A stretch of 64,000 nucleotides of DNA from Sinomicrobium weinanense (GTDB lineage: Bacteria > Bacteroidota > Bacteroidia > Flavobacteriales > Flavobacteriaceae), in the NCBI RefSeq assembly GCF_018863395.1, contig NZ_JAHKRR010000003.1, positions 186,001-250,000 on the forward strand. The letters are read 5' to 3'. Below the pieces are notes generated by a model, which was not told the origin of the DNA, searched no databases, and saw nothing but the letters and a program-made list of their open reading frames with translations. Made by a program: the position numbers and the translations under genes. Of this stretch, positions 20,820-48,945 are shown piece by piece; the stretch's first letter is position 1, and each line of letters opens with the position of its first letter.

Positions 20820-20858
20820 TCATAACACCCCCCATTTAGAAACATAAGGACCCTGCCC
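20820..20858 (+). promoter_or_regulatory. HTCS-type operator candidate upstream of GH31
   Basis: Two half-sites of the form ACAT-N5-CCCT stand 22 bases apart. The upstream one is degenerate (TCAT-AACAC-CCCC); the downstream one is ACATAAGGACCCTGCCC (20842-20858). The same pair is better preserved before susC and before the acetylesterase gene. It lies 63 bases before the GH31 ATG. No clear -7 element follows. Confidence 0.6.
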
Positions 20859-20920
20859 ATGCATTTTTTTATCAGAGATTTGAAGCCTGAATATTTTGTT
20901 GAATCCCTTTCCGATACCAG

Positions 20921-23785
20921 ATGAAAAACCCAAAGAAACTATTGAATTTATTGGTACCGTTGATCTTTGCTGCATGTGCCGAATCTCCTTATCAAAAGAC
21001 TGATGACGGTGTAATTATCAATGTAAAACAACAACAGGAAACCGGGACCCGAAAGGTTCGTTTGCAGGTGTTGGGGGAAGAACTGATCCATGTTTCCGCT
21101 ACCCCCGAAAAGGAATTTCCCCGGGATTCCAGCCTGATCATTGTCCCGGGGCTCCGGACAGTTCCTTTCACCATAGACGATACCGGTGATTCCATCACCC
21201 TGAGCACGGCAAAACTGAAAGCAGCAGTATCCAAATCGGATGGCGGTACACGGTTCAAAGATAAAGCCGGCAAGGTAATACTGGCCGAAAAGCAAGGTGG
21301 GGGCAGGTCATTTACGCCCATTGAAGCAGGCAATACAAAAGGCTACTCGATAAGGCAGCTGTTCGAATCTCCTGACGACGAAGCCTTTTACGGCCTGGGG
21401 CAGCACCAGTCCGATGAGTTCAATTATAAGGGCAAGAGCGAAGAGCTGTTCCAGTACAACACCAAGGTATCCGTACCTTTTGTGATTTCCAACAAAAACT
21501 ACGGCCTCCTGTGGGACAGCTATTCCTTAAGCCGTTTTGGTGACAGCCGGGAGTACAGGCAATTGAATGAAACATTTACATTATATGATAAAGAAGGGCA
21601 ACAGGGCGGGTTAACAGGCACCTACGTATCCCCTGCCCCGGAAAGACCGAGACTGGAACGCAAAGAAGAGTCTCTTTACTTTGAGGACATAAAGGGCATA
21701 AGGAATTTACCTGAAAATTTCCCCTTAAAAGATGCCGATGTAACCTACGAAGGTGCCATAGAGGCACCGCATAACGGTACCTACCGGTTTATCCTGTATT
21801 ATGCCGGGTATGTCAAGGTCTATATGAACGACGAATTGGTGGTGCCCGAACGCTGGCGGACCGCCTGGAACCCGAACAGCTATAAATTTACGTTCGACCT
21901 GGAAGCCGGTAAAAAGGTACCGTTGCGCATCGAGTGGAAACCCGACGGGGGAAAATCGTACCTGGGCCTAAGGGTGCAGCCGCCCCTGGAAGAAGAAGAA
22001 CAGAACAGCCAGGTGTGGTGGAGCGAAATGAATAAGAAATTGGATTACTACTTTGTGTATGGCGAATCCATGGACGAGATCATCGAGGGTTACCGGACAC
22101 TGACCGGAAAATCCCGGATCATGCCCAAATGGGCCATGGGCTTCTGGCAAAGCCGGGAACGATATAAAACCCAGGACGAAATACTGGGTACACTCCAAGA
22201 ATTCCGGGACCGCAAAATTCCGATCGACAATATTGTCCTCGACTGGAACCACTGGCCCGAAGATGCCTGGGGAAGCCATGAATTTGATAAAAACCGTTTC
22301 CCGGACCCGAAAGCCATGGTAGATTCCATCCATGCCATGCACGGAAAAATGATGATCTCCGTATGGCCCAAGTTCTATACAACAACAGAACACTACAAGG
22401 AGTTTGACAATAAAGGTTGGATGTACCGGCAGGCCGTGAAAGACAGCATCCGGGACTGGGTAGGCCCCGGGTACGTAGGCTCATTCTACGATGCCTATGC
22501 TCCCGGTGCCCGGAAGCTGTTCTGGAACCAGATATATGAACATTACTACCCATTGGGCATAGATGCGTGGTGGATGGATGCCAGCGAACCGAATATACTC
22601 GACTGTACGGATATGGAATACCGCAAAGCCCTTTCCGGCCCTACGGCCCTGGGCTCTTCCACGGAATATTTTAACGCTTATGCACTGATGAATGCAGAAG
22701 CGATTTATGAAGGACAACGCGGTGTCGACCCCGATAAACGTGTTTTCCTGTTGACCCGTTCAGGTTTTGCCGGGTTACAAAGATATTCCACAGCTACGTG
22801 GAGTGGTGATATTGCCACCCGCTGGGAAGATATGAAAGCCCAGATCTCTGCCGGCCTCAATTTTGCCATGAGCGGCATCCCCTACTGGACCATGGATATC
22901 GGGGGCTTTTGCGTGGAAAGCCGCTATGTCGATGCACAACTCGAATACGACAGAAGCGGAAAGGAAAATGCCGACCTGAAGGAATGGCGCGAACTCAATG
23001 CCCGGTGGTATCAGTTTGGCGCTTTTGCCCCCCTGTACCGGGCACACGGGCAGTTCCCGTATCGCGAGCCCTGGCATATCGCCCCGAAGGGGCACCCGGC
23101 ATACGATGCCATTTTGTACTATACCCGTTTGCGCTACCGGTTGATGCCTTATATCTATACCCTGGCCGGAATGACCTATTTTGAAGACTATACCATAATG
23201 CGCCCATTGGTCATGGATTTCGGGCAGGACAAAAAGGTAGAAAATATAAGTGACCAGTTTATGTTTGGCCCTTCATTTATGGTATGTCCCGTTTATAAAT
23301 ACCAGGCCCGGAGCCGGGAAGTTTATTTTCCGGAAGGAACAAACTGGTACGATCTCTACACAGGGCAATCCATAGAAGGAGGACAGCGGTTAAAGGTGGA
23401 TGCACCCTATGACCGTATTCCGTTATACATCCGCGAAGGGGCTATCATCCCGGTCGGTCCTGATATACAGTACAGCGATGAGAAACCGGCAGAAACCATT
23501 GTGCTGTATGTCTACCGGGGGCAAAACGGCAATTTTACACTGTATGAAGACGAAGGGGTAAACTACAATTACGAAAAAGGAGATTATTCAACCATCTCTT
23601 TTAATTATAATGACGCAGAGGGAACCCTCACCATCGGAGAGCGAAAAGGAACATTTGACGGAATGCTCAGGGACCGGAAATTCATCATTGTTCCGGTGAG
23701 CAGGGAAGACCCCAGGCCATTTCAATACACCAATCAGGGAAAACAGGTAGATTATGACGGGAAACAGCAAACCATAAAATTGTAA
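20921..23785 (+). CDS. GH31 alpha-xylosidase with PA14 insert, lipoprotein
   Basis: A 954-residue lipoprotein (lipobox Cys19 in LIFAAC). It has an N-terminal beta-sandwich, a PA14 domain inserted at about 229-356, and a GH31 barrel with the nucleophile Asp553 in WWMDASEPN and the acid/base Asp630 in TWSGDIATRW. A C-terminal beta domain follows. The PA14 insert and layout are those of xyloglucan alpha-xylosidases such as the B. ovatus enzyme. It would remove alpha-1,6-xylose from the non-reducing end of xyloglucan oligosaccharides. It is the first gene of the locus and has the shared operator upstream; the regulator gene follows after 54 bases. GH31 specificity calls other than xylosidase remain possible but are less likely in this context. 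Confidence 0.93.
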   Translation: MKNPKKLLNLLVPLIFAACAESPYQKTDDGVIINVKQQQETGTRKVRLQVLGEELIHVSATPEKEFPRDSSLIIVPGLRTVPFTIDDTGDSITLSTAKLKAAVSKSDGGTRFKDKAGKVILAEKQGGGRSFTPIEAGNTKGYSIRQLFESPDDEAFYGLGQHQSDEFNYKGKSEELFQYNTKVSVPFVISNKNYGLLWDSYSLSRFGDSREYRQLNETFTLYDKEGQQGGLTGTYVSPAPERPRLERKEESLYFEDIKGIRNLPENFPLKDADVTYEGAIEAPHNGTYRFILYYAGYVKVYMNDELVVPERWRTAWNPNSYKFTFDLEAGKKVPLRIEWKPDGGKSYLGLRVQPPLEEEEQNSQVWWSEMNKKLDYYFVYGESMDEIIEGYRTLTGKSRIMPKWAMGFWQSRERYKTQDEILGTLQEFRDRKIPIDNIVLDWNHWPEDAWGSHEFDKNRFPDPKAMVDSIHAMHGKMMISVWPKFYTTTEHYKEFDNKGWMYRQAVKDSIRDWVGPGYVGSFYDAYAPGARKLFWNQIYEHYYPLGIDAWWMDASEPNILDCTDMEYRKALSGPTALGSSTEYFNAYALMNAEAIYEGQRGVDPDKRVFLLTRSGFAGLQRYSTATWSGDIATRWEDMKAQISAGLNFAMSGIPYWTMDIGGFCVESRYVDAQLEYDRSGKENADLKEWRELNARWYQFGAFAPLYRAHGQFPYREPWHIAPKGHPAYDAILYYTRLRYRLMPYIYTLAGMTYFEDYTIMRPLVMDFGQDKKVENISDQFMFGPSFMVCPVYKYQARSREVYFPEGTNWYDLYTGQSIEGGQRLKVDAPYDRIPLYIREGAIIPVGPDIQYSDEKPAETIVLYVYRGQNGNFTLYEDEGVNYNYEKGDYSTISFNYNDAEGTLTIGERKGTFDGMLRDRKFIIVPVSREDPRPFQYTNQGKQVDYDGKQQTIKL

Positions 23786-23839
23786 TTGTTACATTTTTTA
23801 TATCTTAGGCGGCCCCTGTTTTTTCAATGAGGCGAGGTG

Positions 23840-26800
23840 ATGAGAGCATTTGTTAAAATATTCGGCATACTTGTTCTGAGTCTGATGGTTACCATTCAGG
23901 CAACAGCACAATCTCCCTACATATTCCATCACTTGACCACCGGGGACGGACTTTCCAACAGCCATGTCAACGCTATTCTAAAAGACAGCTACGGGTTTTT
24001 ATGGGTGGGAACGGCATCGGGATTAAACCGCTATGATGGCTACGGATTTAAGACCTACACCGCAAGGCCCGATGAGCCCGGCACAATGTCCGCAAATAAC
24101 ATCTGGGAATTGCAGGAAGACGGCCTGGGTAATATCTGGGTCAGGAGTTACACCTATATGGTGTATAACCGCGACAAGGACAATTTCATTACGGATGTCC
24201 CCGGCTTTTTGAAGGATCTGGGTATTACCGTAAACCGCAATTACAAAGTTTACGTAGACAGGAAAAAGGACCTGTGGATATTGAGCGGACAAAAAGCATA
24301 CTTGTACGATACCCGTAAAAAGGCCCTGAAGACCTTCAACATCAAAGTGCGGGTGGATGAAGTGGTAACCGCCGGGTTAAGTGATAACGGGAACACTTTG
24401 TATGGCATGCTGAAACCGGGATTTTTGTGGCAGATGGATAAACACACCGGTAACCAGGCGGTATTTGAATTAAAACATATCACAAAACCGGAATGGTACA
24501 ACAAAATATATGCCGATAGCCGCGGCGGGTTATGGCTGCTGTCCGGCAGAACCGACCTGATCTACTACCGGAAAAGCCCGGATTCGGATTGGAAGGAATT
24601 GCTGTTGAGTTCCGTTAGCGGGTCCCGCCGCAATAGAGTATTAAATATGCTGGACGATGAGAACGGCCGCATCTGGATAGGTACCGACCACGACGGGTTG
24701 TTTGTATATGACCGGGCTACCGGAGCGCTGACCAATCTGTCGGAAGACCCGGCCATAAATTCTTCGGTCGCATCCAATAATATCGCGTGCCTGTATAAAG
24801 ATGACAACGGAATTATATGGACGGGCCATAACAAGAAAGGCATTTCTTATTATCACCATAGCTTTCGCAATATCTTGAATGAAGAAGACCCGGATTGCCG
24901 GAATGTCAGCGTCATATTGGAAGACCGACAAGGCAATATCTGGCTGGGCACAGACGGAAAAGGGTTGTTTCTGAAAGAGAAAACCAAAGAAGATAAGATC
25001 AGGAAACTACCGCTGCAAAGCGGTGTTATCGTTTCTTTACTGGAAGACCGTAAAGGACGGATATGGATCGGAACCTATATGGACGGCCTTTTTTGCTATG
25101 AGAACGGAAAATTCAGTCACTTCACCAAGGATAACAGCGGGCTGGCAGGCGACAATATCTGGAGTTTGGTGGAAGACCGGTATGGAAATTTATGGATAGG
25201 CTCCCTGGGCGGAGGGATACAATGCCTGCGCCATGAGGAAGGGAACATGAATGCCCTCGCCACGGTGTGCGAAGAGACGAAACACCCGATGGATATGTAT
25301 TACGACAACGGGGACAAACTGTACATCGGTACGGTCTACGGGCTCTATGTCGTCGATATCACCACCGGAAGCCATGTTATCCATACGGGAAACCACGGGG
25401 GGACGCAGCATTTCAATAAAATGCTGATATCCAATGTGTATAAAGATTCGAAAGACAATATCTGGCTGGGGCACCCGGAAGGACTGACATTATGGGATCT
25501 GAAGAAAGATACGCTCTATTTCCTGGGTAAAGACACCGGCCTTACCGATAACCTCGTCCAGGGTATTATTGAAGATAATCACCGGAATATTTGGGTAACC
25601 ACGAGTAATGGCCTGTCCGTTCTTTCCACCGAACGCGATAGCCGGGGTGTTACGAAAGTCAGTTACAGGAATTTCTCTTCCAAAGACGGGTTCAAGGACA
25701 ACCATTTTAATAATAACGCCATTTATAAACTCCGCAACGGAGATATTCTTTTGGGCGGAGTTGAAGGACTGACCGTTGTGAACCCGAACAAAATGGCCGA
25801 AAAAAACCAGCCTCCGGCCCGGGTGATCTTTACGGGGCTGAGCGTCGGGAACAGCAGCGTTAAGGTAGATTCGCTCTATAAAGGAAATAAGCTGCTGAAA
25901 CACCCTATGGAGCAAACCGACTCGTTGACCTTCCGGCACAACGATAAACAGATCTCCATACAGTTCACTACCGGTGACCTGCTCCATGCCGACAAGGTAA
26001 AATATGCCTACAAGCTGGAAGGATTTGACACACAATGGCTCTACACAAAAGACCATAAAATTGTGTTTTCCTCCCTGGCACCCGGCAGTTACAGGCTCTT
26101 CGTCAAAGCCAGTAACAGTGATGGCGTGTGGAATAACGAGGCCTCGGTACTGAATATCACGGTTATCCCGCCCTTTTACCTGTCGGGATGGGCAATTGCT
26201 TTATATGCCGTATTGGCAATCGGTTTTATCTCGTTTATTGTTTACCGGACCAGGAAACATCACCGCAACAAATTCGAACAGCAAAGGATACAATTGAGAC
26301 GTAAGCAGGAAGCCAGTCTCAACGAAATGAAGCTCAGGTTCTTTACGAACATAAGCCACGATCTTCGCACCCCGCTTACCCTTATCACCACCCCGTTACA
26401 GGCCATATTAAACCAGGAATTGGAAATGGGGTTACGCAAAAAACTGACCACGGTAAACAAAAATGCAGAACAATTGCTGTCGCTGATCAATTCTTTGCTC
26501 GATTTCCGTAAGCTCGACACAGATGCCGAATCCTTGCACTTGCGCCAAGGTAATTTCGTGGCTTTTATGGAAGAAGTATGTGCCCCCTTCCATGTTTATG
26601 CCGTTGATCGTCATATCAATTTTTCCTTTTCCGGGGAGCTAAAAAAACTTTCCATGCAGTTCGATCCGGATAAAGTGCAGAAGATAATGCTGAACCTGCT
26701 TTCCAACGCCTTCAAATTCACACAGGAAGGAGGTGAGATCGATGTCCGTGTATACTGGGAAGAAGACCATGTATGCGTCGATGTTTCGGACTCCGGCCCG

Positions 26801-27832
26801 GGTATTGGGGATAGCCATAAAGAACACATCTTTGAACGGTTTTACCAGGGGCTGCAATTGCAGGAAAGGACAGGCAGTGGTATCGGCCTTCATATCGTAA
26901 GCGAATATATCCGTATGCACGGCGGCACCATTACCGTAAAAGACAACATCCCGCAGGGCAGTACGTTCACCTTTACGCTCCCGGTAACCGAAACCGGGGA
27001 GACGGAAGAACTGAGCCCCGAAGAAGTTTCTGCCGATGACATTGCAGAACAGGTAGACATGCAAGACCGGCCCGAATGCCCGGTACTGCTGTTCGTTGAC
27101 GACAATAAGGATCTATGCGGGTTCATGGCCGACAGCCTGTCGGACGACTATACCGTACTGCTTGCCACTAACGGCAGAGAAGCAATGACACAGCTGGAAA
27201 AACACGACGTTAATGTAGTGGTAAGCGATGTGATGATGCCTGTTATGGACGGTATTGCGCTTTGCAACCGCATCAAGACGAACATACGATGGTCCCATAT
27301 TCCCGTGATCCTGCTCACCGCCCGTACAGCCGAAGAATATGAAATAAAGGGACTGGAAACGGGTGCCGATGATTACCTGACCAAACCGTTCAATTTTAAC
27401 CTGCTGAAACTGCGTATCCGCAAGTTCCTGGAGTGGACGGAAAAATGCCATCTTTCATTCAGTCAGAAGATCGATATCTCTCCCGGTGAAATTACCATCA
27501 CCTCCCTGGATCAGCAACTAATCGAAAAAGCCATAAAAGCGGTAGAAGAACATATCGCCGACCCGGAATTTTCCGTAGAGGAACTGGGCAGCGAGATCGG
27601 GCTCAGCAGAAGCCATTTATATAAAAAGCTGATGAGCATCACCGGAAAAGGACCGGCTGAGTTTATCCGCACCATTCGCCTGAAACGGGGCAGGCAGCTT
27701 CTGGAAAAAAGCCAGATGCAAATTGCCGAAGTGGCTTATAGTGTAGGCTTTAATTCACCAAAAAGGTTTACCATTAATTTCAGGAACGAATTCGGCATCT
27801 CACCTTCGGAATACCTGCGCAGCATAAAATAG
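23840..27832 (+). CDS. Hybrid two-component system regulator of the xyloglucan locus
   Basis: A 1330-residue one-protein signalling chain. It has a signal peptide (to about 25), a periplasmic sensor of two-component propeller repeats (recurring GNIWLGTDGKGLF, GRIWIGTYMDGLF, GNLWIGSLGGGIQ) and a Y_Y_Y domain. A membrane helix (about 780-800) is followed by HisKA with His840 in NISHDLRTPLTLI, the ATPase domain (NLLSNAFKFT, DSGPGIG), a receiver with Asp1130 in VVVSDVMMPVMDG, and an AraC-type HTH (about 1230-1328). I start at ATG 23840, one codon after the GTG that also opens the frame. Such regulators bind an oligosaccharide in the periplasm and activate the neighbouring susCD operon. Its likely DNA targets are the three direct-repeat elements listed here. 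Confidence 0.95.
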   Translation: MRAFVKIFGILVLSLMVTIQATAQSPYIFHHLTTGDGLSNSHVNAILKDSYGFLWVGTASGLNRYDGYGFKTYTARPDEPGTMSANNIWELQEDGLGNIWVRSYTYMVYNRDKDNFITDVPGFLKDLGITVNRNYKVYVDRKKDLWILSGQKAYLYDTRKKALKTFNIKVRVDEVVTAGLSDNGNTLYGMLKPGFLWQMDKHTGNQAVFELKHITKPEWYNKIYADSRGGLWLLSGRTDLIYYRKSPDSDWKELLLSSVSGSRRNRVLNMLDDENGRIWIGTDHDGLFVYDRATGALTNLSEDPAINSSVASNNIACLYKDDNGIIWTGHNKKGISYYHHSFRNILNEEDPDCRNVSVILEDRQGNIWLGTDGKGLFLKEKTKEDKIRKLPLQSGVIVSLLEDRKGRIWIGTYMDGLFCYENGKFSHFTKDNSGLAGDNIWSLVEDRYGNLWIGSLGGGIQCLRHEEGNMNALATVCEETKHPMDMYYDNGDKLYIGTVYGLYVVDITTGSHVIHTGNHGGTQHFNKMLISNVYKDSKDNIWLGHPEGLTLWDLKKDTLYFLGKDTGLTDNLVQGIIEDNHRNIWVTTSNGLSVLSTERDSRGVTKVSYRNFSSKDGFKDNHFNNNAIYKLRNGDILLGGVEGLTVVNPNKMAEKNQPPARVIFTGLSVGNSSVKVDSLYKGNKLLKHPMEQTDSLTFRHNDKQISIQFTTGDLLHADKVKYAYKLEGFDTQWLYTKDHKIVFSSLAPGSYRLFVKASNSDGVWNNEASVLNITVIPPFYLSGWAIALYAVLAIGFISFIVYRTRKHHRNKFEQQRIQLRRKQEASLNEMKLRFFTNISHDLRTPLTLITTPLQAILNQELEMGLRKKLTTVNKNAEQLLSLINSLLDFRKLDTDAESLHLRQGNFVAFMEEVCAPFHVYAVDRHINFSFSGELKKLSMQFDPDKVQKIMLNLLSNAFKFTQEGGEIDVRVYWEEDHVCVDVSDSGPGIGDSHKEHIFERFYQGLQLQERTGSGIGLHIVSEYIRMHGGTITVKDNIPQGSTFTFTLPVTETGETEELSPEEVSADDIAEQVDMQDRPECPVLLFVDDNKDLCGFMADSLSDDYTVLLATNGREAMTQLEKHDVNVVVSDVMMPVMDGIALCNRIKTNIRWSHIPVILLTARTAEEYEIKGLETGADDYLTKPFNFNLLKLRIRKFLEWTEKCHLSFSQKIDISPGEITITSLDQQLIEKAIKAVEEHIADPEFSVEELGSEIGLSRSHLYKKLMSITGKGPAEFIRTIRLKRGRQLLEKSQMQIAEVAYSVGFNSPKRFTINFRNEFGISPSEYLRSIK

Positions 27833-27904
27833 AACGATTTCTTAGAAACTCCCCTAATTTTTTAACAATACATCATAAAATTGGCCGGATTTTTATGGAA
27901 ATGC

Positions 27905-27958
27905 GGCAGGATAACACATTACTCTCCCTTATTAAAAACATAGCGGACCCTGCCCCGG
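27905..27958 (+). promoter_or_regulatory. HTCS-type operator candidate upstream of susC
   Basis: The best copy of the shared element. Two direct half-sites, ACAT-TACTCT-CCCT (27916-27929) and ACAT-AGCGGA-CCCT (27938-27951), are exactly 22 bases apart, two helical turns, within a conserved frame GGCAGGATAA...GCCCCGG. A TACTTTCA -7-like element (27971-27978) follows 20 bases past the second half-site. The susC ATG is at 28039. Confidence 0.65.
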
Positions 27959-28038
27959 CAACAGAAATAATACTTTCACAACTTTGAACGACCACTAAAA
28001 AGGTCACTATTAAAAACCAAACCAAAACTATTTATTGT

Positions 28039-31000
28039 ATGAAGACGTGTACGCGTATTAAATGGCCAGGTAAGAGGCTGAGGCACTCTCTTGTCCCGTT
28101 GCTGATGAATCTGTGGATAATGCCTGTTCTGGGACAGGCCATCCCGGTATCCGGAGTAGTAACCTCAGGTGAGGATAAGGAACTGCTGCCGGGGGTTAAT
28201 GTCGTTGTTAAAGGAACCAACAAGGGAACTGTTACCGACTTTGACGGGAACTATTCCATAGAAGTTCCCTCTCCCGAAGCTGTCCTGGTATTCAGTTCCA
28301 TAGGCTTTGTCTCAAAAGAAGTTGTCGTCGGGCAGAAATCGGTGATCAATGTTGCCCTGAATACCGACATGACCGCCCTGGATGAAGTGGTAGTCATCGG
28401 GTACGGAACCACAAAACGAAAGGACATTACAGGCTCTATTTCGTCGATAACCGGTGAGGACCTCCGGAAAACCAGTCCTGTTACTATGGACCAGGCTCTG
28501 CAAGGGAAAGTTCCCGGGCTTGTGATACAACAGGTTTCGGGGCAGCCGGGCGGAGCGGTATCTGTCCAGGTCAGGGGCTTATCTTCGTTCGGGTCATCCG
28601 ATCCCCTGTACGTCATAGACGGTGTTATTATAAGCAACACGGCCACTCTCGGTTCCGGTACCAATCCCCTGGCCGGGATAAACCCGTCCGAGATCGAGTC
28701 CATCGATGTTTTAAAAGATGCATCCGCTACGGCTATTTATGGTTCGCAGGCCACTAACGGAGTTATCGTGATCACTACAAAAAGAGGAAAAGATGCCCCG
28801 CCCAGTATTAATTATGAATTTTATACGGGCTTTCAGCAACTGCCCAACAGGCTGCCCCTTATGAATTTGCAGGAATATGCCACTTTCATCAATGAACGAA
28901 ATACGGGACTGGGCTGGGGCTTCGATGAAAGACCGGAGTTTGTCAATCCCGAATATCTGGGTAAGGGAACAGACTGGCAGGATGAACTGTTCAGAAACGC
29001 GCCTGTCAGCAATCACACCATTACGGTCAAAGGAGGCGATAAAAGAACGCAATACCTGCTTTCCGGTTCCTATTTCGAGCAGGAGGGCATTGCCCTGGGA
29101 TCTGATTTCAAAAGGATCTCGGTACGGCTTAACCTGGACAACCAGACAACCGATTGGTTAAAAATAGGAACAAGCCTTCAATTGGCAAACATCAAGGAAA
29201 ATGTCAACTCCACCAGTTCAAATGTGATTCAAACGGCACTCAGCCAAACACCCGATATTCCCGTGAGAAATGCTGACGGTAGCTGGGGCGGCGCTTATAA
29301 CCCGAACGGCTGGGTGAACAATACGGTAAACCCGTATGCCATAGCCCTTATCAATAAAGATCGCGCAAGGCGGAAACAAATTTTCGGCAATGCTTACGCT
29401 GAGATCACATTTACAAAAGGCCTGGTACTGAGAAATGAGATAACAGGGAGCTTTTCCATGGCTACGCGGGACAGTTTTTTTCCAAGCTACGAAATGGGGC
29501 TTGTGGAAAGGATCATCAATGAAGGGGCCTACAATTTTGTACAAAGCTATAATTCAACGATACGAAATTATCTCACCTTTTCCCGCCTGTTCGTCGACAG
29601 GTACAATATGAACATCATGGCAGGGCACGAAGCACAGTTGAACAAATCCGAGAACCTGGCTGCGGGGCGTACCAACTTCCCTTCCAATAACGTACAGGTC
29701 ATCAGCGGCGGCGACCCTAATACAGCTACCAATTCAGGGGGCAAGACCCACAGCGCACTGGAATCGTATTTCGGGCGGATAAATTTCGGAATGGACGACA
29801 AATATTTGTTGACTAGCAACGTCCGGGTAGACGGTTCTTCAAAGTTCGCTTCGGGAAACCGGTGGGTAACTACCTATTCGTGGGCCCTGGCCTGGAAAAT
29901 GAATAACGAGGCCTTCCTGAAAAATGTGGAGAAGATCAATGAATTAAAACTACGGGCCGGTTACGGGCTTACCAACAATCAGAATATAAGGGACTATGCC
30001 TATACCTCTACACTGGCTACGGTAACCACAGGCCTTTCCGGAATATCCCAGATTACCAGCAATATGGCAAACCCCTATGTAGAATGGGAAAAGACAAAGT
30101 ACACCAATATAGGCCTTGACGGAACATTCTTTAACTGGCGCCTTAACTTCTCGGTAGATTTTTACAACAGGGACACCGATGGCCTTTTGATGCAAATTCC
30201 GTTGCCAATGTACTCCGGGACAGCTACCAGCTATTCCCCCGGTTCCATAGCTTCCCCTTATATAAACGTAGGTCAGATTAATAACAAGGGGTTTGACTTC
30301 AGGATAAGTTCTAAAAATTTTACCGGGGAAGATTTTTCATGGACAACAGACCTCACCGTATCCCATAATATCAATAAGATCAAAAAACTCAATACCGAAG
30401 GGGCTTCATTAGACGGGGAGTATAGCAAAACCACCGTAGGAAGGTCCATAGGTGAATTTTATGGCTACCAGGTAGAAGGCGTCTTTGCAAAGGCAGAAGA
30501 TTTCGAAACCCATGCCATTCCTGTAAGAAACGGGGAGAAGCTCAATATCGGCCCGGAAGGAGGAAGTATCTGGTATGGCGATCTGATATTTAAGGATTTT
30601 AACGAAGACGGGATCATTGACGAACGCGATCAGACCTACCTGGGTTCGCCGATCCCCAAATACCAGGTGGGGCTTAATAATACATTTTCTTATAAGAACT
30701 TCGACCTGAATATATTTTTCAATGCCAATTACGGAAACAAGGTATTTAACCGGTTGCGTATCAACGGAGAATATCCCGGTACCAGTTTCGGTTACCTCAA
30801 AGCATTAAACAACTATGCTAAACTTGCGCTGATAGATCCGGACGGATCCGACAGCGACGTTAACAATGTTTATGTGACCAATCCCGATACCAGGATCGTG
30901 GGTATCAGAAATGATAATACCAACGATAATAACAGGACTTCGGACAAATTTATCGAAGACGGATCTTTTATCCGGTGCAAAAATATTTCCCTGGGATATA

Positions 31001-31206
31001 CCTTTCCGAAAGAACTCACGCAAAAAATACATATCAATTCCCTTCGGGTTTATGCGAATGTTACCAATGCGTTTATCATTACCAAATACAAAGGAATGGA
31101 CCCTGAGATCGGGTCCTGGGACCCGCTTAACGCCGGTGTGGACAATGGTTTCTATCCCCAGTCGCGTGTATTTTCGGTTGGTGCAAGCATTACTCTTAAC
31201 AAATAA
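28039..31206 (+). CDS. susC: SusC-like TonB-dependent outer-membrane transporter
   Basis: A 1055-residue receptor. After the signal region (about 1-34) comes a carboxypeptidase-regulatory-like domain (about 35-110, ELLPGVNVVVKGTNKGTVTD then FDGNYSIEVP), and a TonB-box region at LDEVVVIGYGT (114-123). A plug follows (KTSPVTMDQALQGKVPGLVI, VRGLSSFGSSDPLYVIDGVI, VLKDASATAIYGSQATNGVI), then the barrel ending RVFSVGASITLNK. With SusD it imports oligosaccharides across the outer membrane using TonB energy. It is co-transcribed with susD (13-base gap) and the glycan-binding protein, behind the operator at 27905. Confidence 0.96.
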   Translation: MKTCTRIKWPGKRLRHSLVPLLMNLWIMPVLGQAIPVSGVVTSGEDKELLPGVNVVVKGTNKGTVTDFDGNYSIEVPSPEAVLVFSSIGFVSKEVVVGQKSVINVALNTDMTALDEVVVIGYGTTKRKDITGSISSITGEDLRKTSPVTMDQALQGKVPGLVIQQVSGQPGGAVSVQVRGLSSFGSSDPLYVIDGVIISNTATLGSGTNPLAGINPSEIESIDVLKDASATAIYGSQATNGVIVITTKRGKDAPPSINYEFYTGFQQLPNRLPLMNLQEYATFINERNTGLGWGFDERPEFVNPEYLGKGTDWQDELFRNAPVSNHTITVKGGDKRTQYLLSGSYFEQEGIALGSDFKRISVRLNLDNQTTDWLKIGTSLQLANIKENVNSTSSNVIQTALSQTPDIPVRNADGSWGGAYNPNGWVNNTVNPYAIALINKDRARRKQIFGNAYAEITFTKGLVLRNEITGSFSMATRDSFFPSYEMGLVERIINEGAYNFVQSYNSTIRNYLTFSRLFVDRYNMNIMAGHEAQLNKSENLAAGRTNFPSNNVQVISGGDPNTATNSGGKTHSALESYFGRINFGMDDKYLLTSNVRVDGSSKFASGNRWVTTYSWALAWKMNNEAFLKNVEKINELKLRAGYGLTNNQNIRDYAYTSTLATVTTGLSGISQITSNMANPYVEWEKTKYTNIGLDGTFFNWRLNFSVDFYNRDTDGLLMQIPLPMYSGTATSYSPGSIASPYINVGQINNKGFDFRISSKNFTGEDFSWTTDLTVSHNINKIKKLNTEGASLDGEYSKTTVGRSIGEFYGYQVEGVFAKAEDFETHAIPVRNGEKLNIGPEGGSIWYGDLIFKDFNEDGIIDERDQTYLGSPIPKYQVGLNNTFSYKNFDLNIFFNANYGNKVFNRLRINGEYPGTSFGYLKALNNYAKLALIDPDGSDSDVNNVYVTNPDTRIVGIRNDNTNDNNRTSDKFIEDGSFIRCKNISLGYTFPKELTQKIHINSLRVYANVTNAFIITKYKGMDPEIGSWDPLNAGVDNGFYPQSRVFSVGASITLNK

Positions 31207-31219
31207 AAAACAGAAAACC

Positions 31220-32803
31220 ATGAAATTCAAATATATCATAGTGTATTCCCTCATCGCGGCTACAGGGCTTTTGGTGTCCTGTGGTGAGGATTTTCTTGAG
31301 CGTGCTCCTTTGTCGGAGACCAGTGCTGAAAACTTCTATCAGACCTCCGAAGACCTGAGGTTGGCAACGGCAGCTTTATACGGTGGGGGTCCCTGGGCCG
31401 ACTGGAATTACAATTGTTATTTGCCTGTTGGCGATGTGCTTAGTGGTAATATGGCCGTAGGTTATTGGGGTGATGCGGTTCAGCTGAATACATTCTCCGT
31501 AACCGGGCTGAATGAGATCATGATAGCTAACTGGAAGTCCATGTACAAGGTTATTGCCCATTGCAATATCACCATTAATGCCATACAGGAAAAAGCGCCG
31601 CCTTCCATTCCTGAAGAGGACAGGAATGCCGCCATTGCCGAAGCGAGGTTTATACGCGGGTTTGCCTATTACAACCTGGCCCTGTTATGGGGAGATGTTC
31701 CCATTATAGAGGACAACATCGGCCTTATCGGAAATCCCCTGGTTTACAGAAATAAAGTTAACGATGTATACCGGTTTGCGGTGAATGACCTCACTTTTGC
31801 CGAGAACCACCTCCCAGATTCCGACACGAAAGGGAGGCTGACCACCTGGTCTGCCCAGGGGATGTTAGCTAAAGTCTATTTGACATGGGCAGGACTGAAT
31901 TCTGAAGGCTCCGGCCAGCGCGACCAGGCATTACTGGACAAGGCCAGATCTTATGCCGGCAATGTCTGTAAAAACAGCGGGCTGATGCTGCTGGACGATT
32001 ATGCAAACCTCTTCAAAACCGGGTACAATGACAACCAGGAATCATTATTTGCCTTGCAATGGGCGCCGGGCCTCGGCTGGCTGGAGGGCAATATGCTACA
32101 GGTATATTCTCCCGGAGGCACTGAAATATCGGCCAACGGACAGGCGGGCTGGTTTAATATTGAGCCTACTATTGACATGTATGCTTTGTACACCGAACAG
32201 GATTCCATAAGGCGCAAGGCCACTTTTATGCTGAGAGGCGATTATTACCCGGAGTTAAATGCTGCGGGAGGTGGTTTTACATTTGATAGCCATACCGGTT
32301 TAAAGAAACATATTATCGGTACCAATGTGGATAACAATGCACCGACCATGACCCTGACCTCTTCTACGGAGCACAATTCTCTATTGAGGCTTGCCGATGT
32401 TTATTTACTGTATGCCGAAGCTATCCTAGGCAATAACGCCGCCACATCAGATGGCGATGCACTGTTTTACTTCAACGAAGTACGCATAAGGGCCGGACTC
32501 GATCCCGTGGCCTCCATCGATGCGGACATATTGCTGAAAGAACGAAGGGTTGAGCTCGCCGCCGAAGGCCAGTTCTGGAACGACCTCGTAAGGCTTTCCT
32601 ACTACGATCCCCAAAAGGCCATCGATATTCTCAATAACGAGCAACGTGTGCCTTTTGACTATGAAGACGGGACGGCAACCCCCCGGGACCCGTACGGGGA
32701 AATAACCCCGGCCACGGTGAATACATTTAGGTTCCCGCTGCCGTCATCCGAGATAACAGCCAATCCTAAACTGTTGGAACCACCGGTATCTTATTCATTC
32801 TAA
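31220..32803 (+). CDS. susD: SusD-like surface glycan-binding lipoprotein
   Basis: A 527-residue lipoprotein (Cys21 in GLLVSCGEDFLE) that caps SusC. The SusD/RagB pattern is clear: FLERAPLSETSAENFYQTSE, AEARFIRGFAYYNLALLWGD (TPR region), and C-terminal LRLADVYLLYAEA, LLKERRVELAAEGQFWNDLV, ending in FPLPSSEITANPKL. I start at ATG 31220, 13 bases after susC, because the longer open frame lies inside susC and lacks a signal. Ligand is expected to be xyloglucan oligosaccharide from context. Confidence 0.96.
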   Translation: MKFKYIIVYSLIAATGLLVSCGEDFLERAPLSETSAENFYQTSEDLRLATAALYGGGPWADWNYNCYLPVGDVLSGNMAVGYWGDAVQLNTFSVTGLNEIMIANWKSMYKVIAHCNITINAIQEKAPPSIPEEDRNAAIAEARFIRGFAYYNLALLWGDVPIIEDNIGLIGNPLVYRNKVNDVYRFAVNDLTFAENHLPDSDTKGRLTTWSAQGMLAKVYLTWAGLNSEGSGQRDQALLDKARSYAGNVCKNSGLMLLDDYANLFKTGYNDNQESLFALQWAPGLGWLEGNMLQVYSPGGTEISANGQAGWFNIEPTIDMYALYTEQDSIRRKATFMLRGDYYPELNAAGGGFTFDSHTGLKKHIIGTNVDNNAPTMTLTSSTEHNSLLRLADVYLLYAEAILGNNAATSDGDALFYFNEVRIRAGLDPVASIDADILLKERRVELAAEGQFWNDLVRLSYYDPQKAIDILNNEQRVPFDYEDGTATPRDPYGEITPATVNTFRFPLPSSEITANPKLLEPPVSYSF

Positions 32804-32823
32804 TCGTATAAAGAAAGTATATC

Positions 32824-34038
32824 ATGGAAAAGACTAAATATATGAATCGATTGCTGCTGGCTTGTGCGGCAGTAATCATGACCCTGATGTTTGCCTGTGA
32901 GCAGGAAGATACCATGCCGGCACCGCTTATTACGAGTATTAGAAATTATGAAGCGGCTCCCAACGACACATTGATCACTGAAATGGTTGCCGAGCAGTGG
33001 GTGGTAATACATGGAAAAAACTTAAGCCAGGTTGGCCAAGTGACTTTTGGTGGCATCCGGGCAAGCATCAACCAAACCCTTTTGACTGATGAAAATATAG
33101 TGGTTCAGATACCTTCTGTTCCGTTCCAGTCGGTGCCCCTGGATGAACTGAATAAAGTAACCGTTGTAAGCGCGGGAGGATCTTATACGTATCCGATTGA
33201 CTTTGCCATTGACCCACCCGTGATCACACGGGTATCATACGAACTCCCGGGTGAGGGAGACCCGGTGTTCATTTATGGAAGCAATTTCTTTTACGTTGAA
33301 GAGGTGACTTTTGCCGGTGCGACGATTTCGGAATACGAATTATCGGATGATGGTACATCAATTGGGTTTATGGCCCCGGCACTCGATCAAAGTGGGCCGG
33401 TAACGGTAAAAACAGGGACAGGAGCCTATACTACTTCTTTCAATGTCAATGATACCACAACAGGTATGCTTTGTAACTTCGATGATGTAAATACATTCGA
33501 CTGGGGGGCGGGTATAAGCAATAACAGCACCACCTTTCCGGGCAACAGGGGCAACTATGCAATTTTAAGCAATGAGGGCCTGAGCGCGGATAATTCCAGT
33601 TGGTGGGAAGGAGGAAGGAGTATTAATACCAAAGGAGTCCAGTGGGTCCCGGAGGATAAGCTGGACGATCCTGTTGGCGATTATGCTTTTAAATTTGAGA
33701 TCAATGTACCCGGACAATGGAACGGAACGTCTATATTCATTTTAAAAGATTTCAATTTTGACTACGTGGCGCGCTATGAACCCTGGAAACTCGGGGATGA
33801 TCAGGCCGCTCCCTTCACCACAAACGGCAATTGGGTCACAGTAACTATCCCTTTTTCACAATTCCGTAATAAACCCGATGGAGGAAAAGATGGCACAGGC
33901 GAATCAGCAGAAAGTTTAAAAGCCTTGCTGGGAGACTCTGGTAACGGAGGTATCAATATCTTCACCATCAATGATTCCAGTGAACCCGCAGCCGCTATGA
34001 ATTTTGCAATTGATAATATCAGAGTAGTGAGAAGGTAA
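32824..34038 (+). CDS. IPT/TIG surface glycan-binding lipoprotein (SGBP-B type)
   Basis: A 404-residue lipoprotein (Cys25 in LMFACEQED). Two immunoglobulin-like IPT/TIG modules follow: about 33-120, with WVVIHGKNLSQVGQVTFGG, and about 120-205, with DPPVITRVSYELPGEGDPVF and YGSNFFYVEEVTFAGATISE. The C-terminal beta-sandwich (about 210-404, CNFDDVNTFDWGAGISNN to AMNFAIDNIRVVRR) fits the xyloglucan-binding domain of B. ovatus SGBP-B. It would sit on the cell surface and hold polysaccharide near GH74/GH5 and SusCD. It follows susD by 20 bases and ends the operon, with a long palindrome just after it. Confidence 0.88.
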   Translation: MEKTKYMNRLLLACAAVIMTLMFACEQEDTMPAPLITSIRNYEAAPNDTLITEMVAEQWVVIHGKNLSQVGQVTFGGIRASINQTLLTDENIVVQIPSVPFQSVPLDELNKVTVVSAGGSYTYPIDFAIDPPVITRVSYELPGEGDPVFIYGSNFFYVEEVTFAGATISEYELSDDGTSIGFMAPALDQSGPVTVKTGTGAYTTSFNVNDTTTGMLCNFDDVNTFDWGAGISNNSTTFPGNRGNYAILSNEGLSADNSSWWEGGRSINTKGVQWVPEDKLDDPVGDYAFKFEINVPGQWNGTSIFILKDFNFDYVARYEPWKLGDDQAAPFTTNGNWVTVTIPFSQFRNKPDGGKDGTGESAESLKALLGDSGNGGINIFTINDSSEPAAAMNFAIDNIRVVRR

Positions 34039-34045
34039 CAGGTAA

Positions 34046-34196
34046 AAGAAGTTGTCTGAAAAAGTCCGTCATGCTGAACTTGTTTCAGCATCCCATCCCG
34101 ATTGTCCGATCATGCGTAATGGGCCCCTGAAATCGAAGATTCGACGAAGTCAAACAAGTTCAGGGTGACGTAAAGCTACTTTTCAGACAACTTCTT
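34046..34196. repeat. 151-bp palindromic element with ~40-bp terminal inverted repeats
   Basis: The arms 34046-34085 and 34152-34196 are inverted copies: AAGAAGTTGTCTGAAAA is identical at both ends. After a short variable stretch CGTCA and CTGAACTTGTTT match again. A small local hairpin (ATGCTGAA...TTCAGCAT) lies inside the left arm. It fills the gap between the SGBP gene and GH74 and encodes nothing. CTGAAACAAGTTCAGCATGA-type repeats are, to my knowledge, widespread in Bacteroidota genomes. Confidence 0.85.
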
Positions 34197-34266
34197 CCCA
34201 AAATGTTTTTTGCAACCAAAGCCACCAAAAATTTACACCATTTAATTACCCCCTTAAACTTAAATT

Positions 34267-36738
34267 ATGAAAAAACCCCATCATGACTATGGAGAAAACA
34301 GTTTCTGGCATAAAATACCTGCCTTTCTCTGTTTATTTGTCGCAATTCTTATGTGCCAGGGCCATAAGGTGAAGGCCCAGGCCACAGCAGATTACAACTG
34401 GAAAAATGTGGCTATCGGCGGTGGCGGATTTGTATCTGCCATTATACCGAGTAAGACCCAGCAAAACCTGGTTTATGCGCGGACCGATGTAGGAGGCGCC
34501 TACAGATGGAATGCTTCGACGAACAGCTGGATACCTCTGACGGACTGGGTATCGGAAGACCAGGTAGGGTTTCTGGGCGTTGAATCTCTGGCCATCGATC
34601 CCCAATCGCCCAACAGGGTTTATATGCTGGCAGGGATTTCATATTTCAACGGCGGGAAAACAGCCATCCTTCGCTCCAATGATTATGGCAACACGTTTAC
34701 CGTAACAGATGTCACTGATCAATTTAAGGCTCACGGTAACGGTATGGGGCGACAAACCGGCGAGAAACTTGTAGTTGACCCCAACAACAGCAATATTCTG
34801 TACTGCGGTACGCGATGGAACGGATTGTTCAGGAGTACGGATGCCGGTGCAACATGGAGCAGGCTCAACGCGCTCAACGTCACCACGACTCCCAATGAAA
34901 ACGGGATAAGCTTTGTGATTCTGGATGGCAGTAGTGTTTCGGGGGGAGTTACGCAACGGATCATTGTCGGGGTTTCGCGCAGCGGCAGTACAAACCTGTA
35001 CCGAAGCGATAATGGCGGCCAGTCCTTTTCGGCAGTTTCAGGGGCTACCACCACCTATATGCCCCATCGGGCGGCTTTGGCAGGTAACGGAGACCTGTAT
35101 ATAACCTATGGCAATGGAGCCGGGCCTCACGGGCACTCGGCAGTACCCGAACCCATGGATAACGGACAGGTCTGGAAATACAATATTCCTTCAGGTGCAT
35201 GGACCAACATCACACCTTCGGGTTTCAACAGGGCATTCGGAGGAATAAGTGTTGATCCGAATAATCCCGGCAGGATTGTAGCATCTACCATCAACACCTA
35301 TATGAACCAGAATGGCGCCTGGGGCGACCGGATATTCCTGAGCACCAACGGCGGATCGAGCTGGGTTGATGTGGTAGACCGGGGATTTAACATGGACCCT
35401 GACGGTGTAACCTGGATCAACGGCCATTCCATCCATTGGGCGGGTTCCATAGAATTCGACCCTTTTAATACGCAAAAAGTCTGGGTCACTTCGGGTAACG
35501 GTATTTTCGTGAATGACAACATCAATAGCAGCGGTACCTGGCGGTTTACTGTCCGGGGGCTTGAAGAAACCGTGCCACTCAGTTTGGAAAGTATCCCCAA
35601 TGGCCCTGTGATCTCAGTTATTGGCGACTATGACGGGTTCAGGCACACAAACATTGATCAATACGCCCCCATTCATAATCCGCAAATGGGAACCACCACG
35701 GGATTGGCAGTAGCGGCTCAGAATACAAGCAAAATGGTTCGGGTGGGAAATTCCATGTATTATTCCACCGATATGGGATCGACCTGGACCCAAAGCAATA
35801 TGAACGGGACGCAGGGACAGGTGGCTTTATCCGCCAATGGCAATATCGTTTTGCATTCCCCCAGGCAATCTTCTGTTACATACCGGTCCACTAATAACGG
35901 GGCTTCCTGGTCCACGGTAAGCGGCTTAAATTTTAATGAAGCGCGGCCGGTTGGCGACCCGGTCAATTCCGATAAATTTTATGCATACAACCCTGAAAAC
36001 GGAGCGGTAATGGTGAGCACCAACGGCGGGGCTTCATTTTCCCAGTCTGCTTCAGTTGCGAGCTGGGGCACAAAAGTCATCCGGCTGGCGCCCGGAAGGG
36101 AAGGCCATATCTGGATAGCATTGAATAACGGCGGCCTGGCACGTTCAACCGATTCCGGGCAATCATTTTCAACCATAAGCGGCATCGGCAATTGCGGAGC
36201 CGTTGGTTTCGGTGTAGCTGCCCCCGGGGCAAATTATCCTGCCATTTACATCTGGGGTACCATCAGCAATGTAAAAGGTGTTTATCGCTCCACAGACCAG
36301 GGGGCATCCTGGACCAGGATCAATACGGACGCGCAACAATACGGAGGTCCGGGAAACGGGCAATTTGTGCAGGGAGATATGAATGTCTTCGGAAGAGTAT
36401 ATATGAGTACGGCCGGTCGTGGTATCGTATACGGAGACCCTGCTGCCGGATCATTTGCTTCCGATGTGTCTGAAAGACCGGATGAACATGAGATTACCGA
36501 AGATGAAGTTGTTATTTACCCGAATCCTGCCCGGGCAGGGAAATTTTCAATAGTATTACCCGCCCCTTTACAAACCGCAATCATCAGTATTTATGATAAC
36601 CGGGGCAGATGGTTGTACCAGGAAGTTACAGAAGGGGATGAAATACTGGAATTCGATCAGTCTTTGAAAAGAGGGATTTACCTGGTGAATATACGTTCCG
36701 GTAAACATAACATAACGAAGAAGTTAATTGTTAATTAA
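34267..36738 (+). CDS. GH74 endo-xyloglucanase with T9SS sorting domain
   Basis: An 823-residue secreted enzyme. After a signal peptide (to about 39) come two seven-bladed propellers with many Asp-box-like turns (RSTDAGATW, STNGGSSW, STDMGSTW, RSTNNGASW, RSTDQGASW), the hallmark of GH74. Likely catalytic Asp residues are Asp74 (ARTDVGGAYRW) and Asp454 (VIGDYDGF). The last ~75 residues (YPNPARAGKFSIVLP to ITKKLIVN) are a type A T9SS sorting domain, so it should leave through SprA and be anchored or released outside. It cuts the glucan backbone of xyloglucan. It lacks a promoter that I can define; a hairpin follows it. Confidence 0.94.
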   Translation: MKKPHHDYGENSFWHKIPAFLCLFVAILMCQGHKVKAQATADYNWKNVAIGGGGFVSAIIPSKTQQNLVYARTDVGGAYRWNASTNSWIPLTDWVSEDQVGFLGVESLAIDPQSPNRVYMLAGISYFNGGKTAILRSNDYGNTFTVTDVTDQFKAHGNGMGRQTGEKLVVDPNNSNILYCGTRWNGLFRSTDAGATWSRLNALNVTTTPNENGISFVILDGSSVSGGVTQRIIVGVSRSGSTNLYRSDNGGQSFSAVSGATTTYMPHRAALAGNGDLYITYGNGAGPHGHSAVPEPMDNGQVWKYNIPSGAWTNITPSGFNRAFGGISVDPNNPGRIVASTINTYMNQNGAWGDRIFLSTNGGSSWVDVVDRGFNMDPDGVTWINGHSIHWAGSIEFDPFNTQKVWVTSGNGIFVNDNINSSGTWRFTVRGLEETVPLSLESIPNGPVISVIGDYDGFRHTNIDQYAPIHNPQMGTTTGLAVAAQNTSKMVRVGNSMYYSTDMGSTWTQSNMNGTQGQVALSANGNIVLHSPRQSSVTYRSTNNGASWSTVSGLNFNEARPVGDPVNSDKFYAYNPENGAVMVSTNGGASFSQSASVASWGTKVIRLAPGREGHIWIALNNGGLARSTDSGQSFSTISGIGNCGAVGFGVAAPGANYPAIYIWGTISNVKGVYRSTDQGASWTRINTDAQQYGGPGNGQFVQGDMNVFGRVYMSTAGRGIVYGDPAAGSFASDVSERPDEHEITEDEVVIYPNPARAGKFSIVLPAPLQTAIISIYDNRGRWLYQEVTEGDEILEFDQSLKRGIYLVNIRSGKHNITKKLIVN

Positions 36739-36753
36739 TAGGGAAGCGTGAAT

Positions 36754-36782
36754 GGTGGTATGTTGTTTTTTGGCATACCACC
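36754..36782. terminator. Hairpin after GH74
   Basis: A perfect 9-base stem (GGTGGTATG with CATACCACC) with an 11-base T-rich loop, 15 bases past the GH74 stop. No terminal U-run, so it could be a processing or stability element. A new promoter region begins right after it. Confidence 0.5.
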
Positions 36783-36800
36783 GCTCACCATTATAAACAA

Positions 36801-36852
36801 GGCAGGATAAAACATAAAACCCCTTATCAGACACATAGCATCCCTTGTCCGG
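36801..36852 (+). promoter_or_regulatory. HTCS-type operator candidate upstream of the acetylesterase
   Basis: Same composite as before susC: GGCAGGATAA at the start, half-sites ACAT-AAAAC-CCCT (36812-36824) and ACAT-AGCAT-CCCT (36833-36845) 21 bases apart, then TCCGG. A TACTTTAG -7-like element (36866-36873) stands 20 bases further on, as in the susC copy. The gene starts at 36928. Confidence 0.65.
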
Positions 36853-36927
36853 ATAAGGTTATAAATACTTTAGCCAAACTGAATGACGGATTTAGAGCCA
36901 CAATCAAAATAAATTAACCTGAAAACA

Positions 36928-38889: not shown

Positions 38890-38926
38890 AACCTATACAA
38901 AACATAAAAACGAATACTAACGTCGA

Positions 38927-39140
38927 TTTAGTACATGACAAAAAATGCATCAGCTTAACAAGAATAGGGCTTATGAGTGCTTCTTCATGATCAGCCTGGC
39001 TAAAAAAGTCCTCCCCCAGCCCCTCCCAAGGAGGGGAGCTTATAACTCCTTCCCTTTGGGGAGGTTGGGAGGGGACAAATCTCAAAAAAAACCATTCGAT
39101 TGATTTTTAATTAATTATGTGGTTTTGTCATGTGCTAAAA
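38927..39140. repeat. Nested palindromic element upstream of GH5
   Basis: The outer arms TTTAGTACATGACAAAA (38927-38943) and TTTTGTCATGTGCTAAAA (39123-39140) are inverted copies. Between them lies a GC-rich hairpin with arms 39008-39038 and 39046-39076 (22 of 31 positions paired, more with G-U) and a 7-base loop. The gap between the acetylesterase and GH5 genes (276 bases) holds no gene. The outer motif occurs again before GH97 at 42224. Confidence 0.75.
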
Positions 39141-39165
39141 ACATCGATAACAAAAACAACCCGAA

Positions 39166-40422: not shown

Positions 40423-40454
40423 TAAAAACCTGCCCGTATTTCAATTAAAAATAA

Positions 40455-42044
<1,590 letters not shown>

Positions 42045-42110
42045 AATTATCGTGTTACAGTTGTAGAGTTTTAGAGTTTTGGAGTTGAAGGTATTATTTT
42101 TTTGTTACAG

Positions 42111-42175
42111 GTTACATATTGCAGGTTATATGTTTGGGTAATAGCTTAACAAACCTGCAACCTGCAACATGTAAC
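42111..42175. repeat. Intergenic hairpin repeat between GH43 and GH97
   Basis: The 25-base arms at 42111-42135 and 42151-42175 are complementary at 21 positions, with a 15-base loop. They are made of GTTACA/TGCAGGTT units. The gap (210 bases) has no gene. Units of this type also flank the palindrome at 6663. Confidence 0.8.
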
Positions 42176-42223
42176 TTGAAATTTGCCCTGGTGTTACCCG
42201 CTCCAATCAGAATAGCGTCATTT

Positions 42224-42241
42224 TTTTGTCATGTATTAAAA
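42224..42241 (+). promoter_or_regulatory. TTTTGTCATGTnnTAAAA motif upstream of GH97
   Basis: This 18-base motif ends 13 bases before the GH97 ATG. It matches the motif ending 25 bases before GH5 (39123-39140) in all but two central positions. A third, inverted copy is at 38927. It may be a regulatory site or a piece of a repeat. Confidence 0.4.
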
Positions 42242-42254
42242 ATCAATATATCAA

Positions 42255-44240: not shown

Positions 44241-44351
44241 TATGTGTTTGCACAGCTAATCTACCTTGCCAATACTCAGTCCCCGGTATATTACGTGGTG
44301 GGAGAAGGAAGTGTAAAGTTTAAGAATTTCGATTATAAGCCATTAAAATAA
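44241..44351 (+). pseudogene. 3' remnant of a lost gene after GH97
   Basis: Directly after the GH97 stop, and in the same frame, 36 codons stay open and read VFAQLIYLANTQSPVYYVVG then EGSVKFKNFDYKPLK before TAA. The ending resembles the last strands of exported beta-sandwich domains (compare [13 protein letters not shown] in GH43 here). GH97 already has its normal end, so this is more likely the tail of a deleted neighbour than a GH97 extension. There is no start codon. Confidence 0.4.
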
Positions 44352-44355
44352 ATAA

Positions 44356-45897: not shown

Positions 45898-45970
45898 TAA
45901 AAGAAGTATATGAACCGGAAAAGTGTCATTTTTCAGCGAATTAAACAAATTTAAACAAGCTCAATATAAA

Positions 45971-48397: not shown

Positions 48398-48481
48398 ACC
48401 GGTATTATATAACCAATGGTGTTATAGATAAAAATTCACCTGAATAGTACAACTCAAGAACAAACCTAAAAAAGCAATATC

Positions 48482-48922: not shown

Positions 48923-48945
48923 TTGTCAAAATTGAAATTAAGAAA

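Follow-up and report, generated by a model that had tools for sequence, protein, structure and literature searches.

Tandem direct repeats before three units of a putative xyloglucan utilization locus in Sinomicrobium weinanense as the probable operator of its hybrid two-component regulator

A stretch of 64,000 nucleotides from the flavobacterium Sinomicrobium weinanense (hereafter the window; G000:C23:186001-250000, genome size 5.36 Mb) encompasses a putative xyloglucan utilization locus in which a GH31 gene, a susC gene and an acetylesterase gene are each preceded by a tandem pair of half-sites of the form (A/T)CAT-N5/6-CCC (Table 1). Comparison of these sites within the genome, across the genus and with more distant relatives makes it probable, at roughly 0.85 by our own estimate, that the hybrid two-component system (HTCS) regulator encoded in the same locus has its operator in the three tandem repeats. 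The proposed binder combines in a single chain a propeller sensor, Y_Y_Y, HisKA, HATPase_c, a receiver and an AraC-type helix-turn-helix domain (Pfam), that is, the composition of an HTCS.

In all three pairs the half-sites point in the same direction, with spacings of 22, 22 and 21 bp before GH31, susC and the esterase, respectively, and the pairs lie upstream of predicted polysaccharide utilization locus (PUL) operons that the HTCS gene adjoins (genes assigned by Pfam), the start codons following 101-123 bases downstream of the first half-sites. A separation of 21-22 bp amounts to about two turns, so that both half-sites would be exposed on one face of the DNA. A lone ACAT-N5/6-CCCT is near chance (7 in the window, shuffle mean 4.96); tandem [AT]CAT-N5/6-CCC pairs, a pattern picked after the sites had been seen, number three, as against a mean of 0.017 and a maximum of one in 300 first-order Markov re-samplings, and at spacings from 12 to 45 no such pair occurs in the window except at 21 and 22. 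Paired ACAT-N5/6-CCCT boxes had been described for these promoters in the first-pass annotation; all three pairs stand, with the amendment that the distal half before GH31 departs from this form.

The same annotation anticipated that a genome-wide search would hit almost only this locus, and this is indeed what is observed. A profile trained on six sites, three each from the window and from Sinomicrobium pectinilyticum, the closest named relative found (locus L011, regulator 90% identical), retrieves the three window sites with expectation values (E) of 4.4e-8 to 3.3e-7, the next matches being at E 2.25 and 5.14. Because the window sites belonged to the training set of this profile, the GH31 sites were left out of a second one, for which only the sites before susC and the esterase in the two species served as input. 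When run against the whole genome, this leave-out profile recovers the susC and esterase sites on which it was trained, followed by the GH31 site at E 0.225 (14.5 bits), and no further match up to E 10 (with 150 of the 1555 first-look candidates scored); within the window, in an unfiltered search, the GH31 site is found at E 0.0027 and the next match at 0.27. A loose pattern yields 10 matches in the genome versus 6 for the reversed control, six of the ten within predicted genes; the remaining four, all intergenic, are L001 and the three sites. For S. pectinilyticum the pattern was relaxed slightly and gives 14 matches, these three sites among them, versus 9 for the control. L001 (G000:C5:67434-67467), on another contig, is the shared promoter of a divergent pair of genes for an HTCS and a SusC-type TonB-dependent receptor (Pfam); in it, AACATTATT(AT)CCCC is directly repeated with a period of about 21 bp, and this repeat is probably the operator of L001's own HTCS.

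The sites track the locus within the genus. Among six Sinomicrobium genomes, the family of the xyloglucan surface glycan-binding protein (SGBP-B) is represented in three (G000, G774 and G775) and not in the other three; with the six-site profile, three strong sites are found in each of the former (worst E 0.0028), and in the latter there is no match below E 0.16. G775, which is taken as S. pectinilyticum (its matches coincide with those in G773, the genome of L011), shows two extra matches at about E 0.2. G000 and G775 are both in the six-site model, and only G774 is independent; its matches (E 1.8e-8, 5.6e-7 and 0.0028) lie before GH31, SusC and esterase genes whose products are 94, 96 and 96% identical to those of the window. 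At the esterase, the operator pair is spaced by 21 bp in the window and by 22 in both sister species, and the footprint from AAAACAT through TACTTTAGCCAA is conserved in the three species with one indel and one substitution, the flanks differing on both sides and conservation returning near the start codon. Both sister species retain the proximal half-site before GH31. There, the block that can be aligned to S. pectinilyticum starts at 20817, at the motif itself, the DNA just upstream having diverged, as is also the case at the esterase. The flanks at susC are conserved too, which renders the susC footprint uninformative. In G774, the SGBP-B (L172 15610-17118) is 39% identical to that of the window, the surrounding genes being 91-96% identical; either fast divergence or replacement of this surface protein could account for this.

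Beyond the genus, HTCS orthologues were collected by tblastn and genome searches, and in many of these relative loci GH31 adjoins the HTCS or is near it. A two-box score derived solely from the window and S. pectinilyticum (12 half-sites) was applied to 30 of the 40 annotated relative loci (the window and L011 not counted) and, as a control, to 373 promoters from 54 loci of other HTCSs (L035-L090 minus L037 and L066), in which a screen made after scoring detected no GH31 (at least 44% identical) and no SGBP-B match. Left out of the 30 were L013 and L125 (one place, close to L012), L126, L123, L124, L128 and L132 (flanks), L018 and L021 (short contigs), and L024; L025-L032 are in neither set. 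There is kinship among the 30, with L012, L014, L127 and L122 belonging to one genus and L015 repeating with L129 and L130. The control scores have a 95th percentile of 11.0, a 99th percentile of 15.9 and a maximum of 18.8. Of 13 promoters outside the genus that precede GH31 genes with at least 44% identity to that of the window, 12 exceed the 95th percentile and 8 the 99th, four of these eight coming from one genus; the highest scores, at L138 (27.2) and L134 (24.9), with GH31 proteins 47-48% identical, belong to genomes (G514 and G482) from outside the window's family, Flavobacteriaceae. The 18 loci left out, which were scored later (103 promoters), include a single GH31 promoter place, that of L013/L125, at 20.0, and their other promoters reach at most 17.1. 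The sites are conserved before orthologous genes in related genomes, with the exceptions of L136, L022 and G308, so that the earlier attribution to the regulator of the locus appears sound: within the genus they accompany the locus, and in other families they are found again upstream of GH31 next to orthologues of the HTCS, though not next to every one. Elsewhere in the locus, the regions ahead of SGBP-B, GH74, GH5, GH97 and GH29 have best two-box scores of 3.1-9.8, below the control 95th percentile, and the additional scores in the window, 11.0 at GH2b, 12.7 in a GH2 stretch at 47009 that actually lies within the gene and 14.7 at an unrelated gene at 6705, are taken as chance.

The position of the pairs relative to the promoter can be judged from the Bacteroidetes sigma-ABfr consensus, -7 TAnnTTTG and -33 TTTG (PMC7366714). 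Among the 25 sites ahead of annotated genes that reach a score of 12.5 or more (18 loci; six of the sites from the window and L011), 14 have a TAnnTTTG match (at least 5/6) that starts 18-21 bases past the second box, versus 1.3 expected from re-sampled downstream sequence (p 0.0005, the floor of the test), and without near-duplicates the numbers are 9 of 19 versus 1.0. This is a positional signal over the 25 sites, the three window promoters themselves agreeing with the -7 consensus at 4-5 of 6 positions. With the -7-like element often about 20 bases after the second box, the proximal CCC box would hold the -33 position, as the first reading of the sequence had placed it. The putative window promoters resemble those of sigma-ABfr in the fixed distance of this element and differ from them in the imperfect -7 and the CCC box at the presumed -33 position (PMC7366714), features that would fit activator-dependent promoters, with an activator contacting the polymerase at -33. 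Scans for E. coli-type promoters and terminators gave numbers similar to those of shuffles (33 vs 30.8 and 33 vs 28.7; 20 vs 24.3 and 27 vs 20.4).

Not all the flanking sequences that were initially assigned to the operator could be retained. GGCAGGATAA is present in the window at 27905 (before susC), at 36801 (before the esterase) and, on the minus strand, at 36243; before susC the two sister species have GGAAGGATAA and GGAAGAATAA in its place, and before the esterase both lack it, so that, not being conserved, it was rejected as an operator part. The downstream CCGG is conserved at the esterase only and was likewise given up. TACTTT is conserved at susC and the esterase across the three species compared; the distance of 23-24 reported for it is from start to start and corresponds to 19 and 20 bases from the end of CCCT. 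Two other candidates were discarded, namely a GGCAGG...CCTGCC inverted repeat at susC, seen by eye and lost in the sister species, and a palindromic Crp-type site, since by inspection the half-sites point the same way.

A number of observations weigh against the assignment of the repeats to the HTCS. The distal GH31 half-site is degenerate, TCAT...CCCC rather than ACAT...CCCT, and reads CAC in S. pectinilyticum; in a comparison of the window with S. pectinilyticum, the motifs before GH31 and susC show no higher conservation than the sequence that immediately follows them; the leave-out E-value of 0.225 is weak in absolute terms; and 11 of the 25 sites have no good -7 element at the expected place. 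Among the relatives, 5 of the 13 GH31 promoters fall below the 99th percentile, that of L136 scoring just 2.5, and L022, which was skipped by the intergenic filter, scores 9.1, bringing the count above the 95th percentile to 12 of 14. G308, despite an AraC domain 81% identical, has no clear site (9.5 at susC, -1.0 at a 28%-identical GH31), and the first half-site of L034 contains ACAT without CCC. Furthermore, scores of 16-19 are also reached by some promoters in loci of other HTCSs, so that the two-box score alone is not proof, and a default-filter profile search of 22 relative loci returned no match, so that the cross-family case depends on this simpler score. As a separate observation, a near-perfect inverted repeat, with one extra C in one arm, lies upstream of SusC in L034 (2708-2747); it overlaps the ACAT boxes and stands shortly before a perfect TACCTTTG.

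Could the pairs be explained in another way? They might be the operator of a different regulator that controls the locus, such as a second AraC/HTCS protein or a cytoplasmic sugar regulator. AACAT repeats at 21 bp near other HTCS genes (5 of the 373 control promoters) and the similar repeat in the divergent HTCS/SusC promoter of L001, in the same genome, imply that related regulators could cross-bind, but the recurrence of the sites beside orthologues of the HTCS at 23837 in other families, along with their tracking of the xyloglucan locus within the genus, makes a different regulator improbable. We give even less credence to the possibility that the pairs are core or extended promoter elements, for instance those of an extracytoplasmic function (ECF) sigma factor, with no operator involved. 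The fixed distance to the -7-like element is compatible with such elements, but a direct repeat two helical turns apart would be unexpected for a sigma site, the loose pattern is intergenic at one other place in the genome, the profile finds nothing else below E 2.25, and no sigma factor is encoded among the 15 locus genes scanned, the rest of the genome not having been checked for one.

The least credible of these explanations, in our opinion, is that the promoters of susC and the esterase arose by duplication from a common ancestor, their likeness reflecting descent without function. These two promoters do have more than the core in common (GGCAGGATAA and TACTTT), but the sister species keep the core and lose GGCAGGATAA, GH31 shares the core only, and the core recurs in other families.

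Under the preferred reading, in which the repeats are the operator of the HTCS, xyloglucan oligosaccharides would bind the periplasmic propeller region of the regulator, which would phosphorylate its own receiver; the AraC domains of the HTCS dimer would then occupy the two half-sites, and the proximal domain, at the -33 position, would recruit RNA polymerase. Three units would be activated in this manner: GH31 with the HTCS, susC-susD-SGBP-GH74, and the esterase with the hydrolases. Given that the HTCS starts 51 bases behind GH31 (a gap below the length limit of the promoter filter), positive autoregulation of the HTCS is likely. A complication for simple autoregulation is that 32 bases at 23778-23809, comprising the last GH31 codons and part of the gap before the HTCS, with TATCTTAG among them, are fully shared with S. 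pectinilyticum, so that a separate HTCS promoter at this place is possible too. The SHIP motif of the receiver, which has been tied to repression of DNA binding without phosphorylation (PMC11253607), is present in the HTCS sequence and, by analogy, points to phosphorylation gating of DNA binding.

The spacing of the repeats deserves separate consideration. When repeated 5-mers that include ACA are counted without bias, xyloglucan-type loci peak at 21 (16) and 22 (22); the control loci have 23 at 21 and 1 at 22, the next value being 14 at 16, with lesser peaks at 16 and 42. Merged to sites, the 21:22 ratio is 11:19 in 26 xyloglucan-type loci versus 23:2 in 60 loci (Fisher 2.3e-5, for sites that are non-independent), and exact AACAT direct repeats in the control promoters occur at 21 bp but not at 22. 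It is conceivable, if rather doubtful, that an AACAT core is common to HTCSs and that lineages are separated by the spacing and the second box, mostly 22 bp with CCC for xyloglucan and 21 for the others. The nearly equal numbers of control box-pair matches of at least 11.0 at 21 (14) and 22 (10) speak against a strict spacing rule, and the contrast is offered as a lead only. The GH31 promoters of L131 (5947-6093, 22 apart) and L138 (5314-5481, 22 and 21 apart) each have three consecutive half-sites, which suggests binding of more than a dimer; should the spacing hypothesis be true, a one-base register change would be part of a specificity code, and these two promoters would bind as three-half-site arrays.

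The 15 locus genes scanned encode, according to Pfam, GH31, the HTCS, a SusC-type receptor, SusD, a xyloglucan SGBP-B, a sortilin/BNR protein, a SASA esterase, GH5, GH43, GH97, a fucosidase, two GH2, GH3 and a dehydrogenase. The sortilin/BNR protein, to use the name that Pfam itself gives, is presumably GH74-like. The combination of SusC/D, a xyloglucan SGBP-B, GH31 and GH5/GH74-type enzymes fits a xyloglucan utilization locus, the substrate being predicted from the genes. Two-component control of xyloglucan use is reportedly exerted also by XygS/XygR of Ruminiclostridium cellulolyticum, a Gram-positive system, unlike the present one. Long intergenic stretches within the locus form hairpins (window about 34050-34190, 39010-39080 and 42090-42190), and the first of these coincides with a break in the S. 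pectinilyticum alignment, so that they are possibly mobile repeat elements. The esterase (36928-38889) has a weak GH2_N match, under the curated cut-off, ahead of the main SASA match, which recalls CE20 esterases carrying an inserted ancillary domain (PMC12313940).

Table 1. Predicted operator pairs, -7-like elements and genes of the locus, in window coordinates
Feature	Coordinates	Strand	Basis
Predicted operator pair before GH31, TCAT-N5-CCCC + ACAT-N5-CCCT, 22 bp apart (TCAT 20820, CCCC 20829, ACAT 20842, CCCT 20851)	20820..20854	+	sequence; profile excluding GH31 sites
Predicted operator pair before susC, ACAT-N6-CCCT twice, 22 bp apart (ACAT 27916-27919, CCCT 27926-27929, ACAT 27938-27941, CCCT 27948-27951)	27916..27951	+	sequence
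Predicted operator pair before esterase, ACAT-N5-CCCT twice, 21 bp apart (ACAT 36812, CCCT 36821, ACAT 36833, CCCT 36842)	36812..36845	+	sequence
-7-like element GAGATTTG before GH31, 20 bases past second box, 5/6 consensus positions	20875..20882	+	
-7-like element TACTTTCA before susC, 19 bases past second box, 4/6 consensus positions	27971..27978	+	
-7-like element TACTTTAG before esterase, 20 bases past second box, 5/6 consensus positions	36866..36873	+	
GH31 gene, alpha-xylosidase-type (activity inferred)	20921..23785	+	Pfam
HTCS, proposed binder	23837..27832	+	Pfam, sequence
SusC, SusD, SGBP-B and GH74-like genes, proposed second unit	28039..36738	+	Pfam
Acetylesterase (SASA), GH5, GH43, GH97, fucosidase, two GH2, GH3; proposed third unit, far end putative	36928..52991	+	Pfam

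How does this predicted operator relate to known ones? HTCS operators were predicted in 2013 as direct repeats of two conserved sites, with a mean of 21 bp between the tandem sites, upstream of SusC/D and hydrolase operons in loci associated with HTCSs, and a dimer on one DNA face was proposed (Ravcheev et al., 2013; PMC3878776). The window pairs are similar in being direct repeats at about 21 bp before SusC/D and hydrolase operons; the published set covers Bacteroides, its main text does not contain the word xyloglucan, and the window pairs are defined by ACAT-N5/6-CCC with a spacing of mostly 22 (PMC3878776). By its architecture and spacing, the operator is of an already known type. Gel shifts of receiver-AraC fragments on susC promoters have been described for BT4124/bt4114 and BT4663/bt4662 (PMC11253607), and a gel shift on a PUL promoter also for BT0366 (PMC5061871). 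BT4124 and BT4663 have the same domain order as the window HTCS, in which the SHIP motif is present, but their binding is experimental and concerns other glycans, whereas that of the window HTCS is predicted (PMC11253607). We recognised no earlier description of the operator of a xyloglucan HTCS in the open-licence literature searched. Operators of the HTCS type being already known, the present one, which most likely serves the regulator of its own locus, is newly mapped here and is traceable in distant relatives.

The hypothesis makes a sharp prediction, namely three promoters with two half-sites each at a fixed distance from the -7 element, and could provide an HTCS-operator pair for testing outside Bacteroides. 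Since B. thetaiotaomicron has 36 HTCS paralogues (PMC3878776), a footprint that extends across families lets one ask how such paralogues keep their targets apart. Finally, HTCS expression is described as typically low and constitutive (PMC6874557); if the HTCS of this locus belongs to the GH31 unit, the regulator would, unlike in that typical situation, amplify itself.

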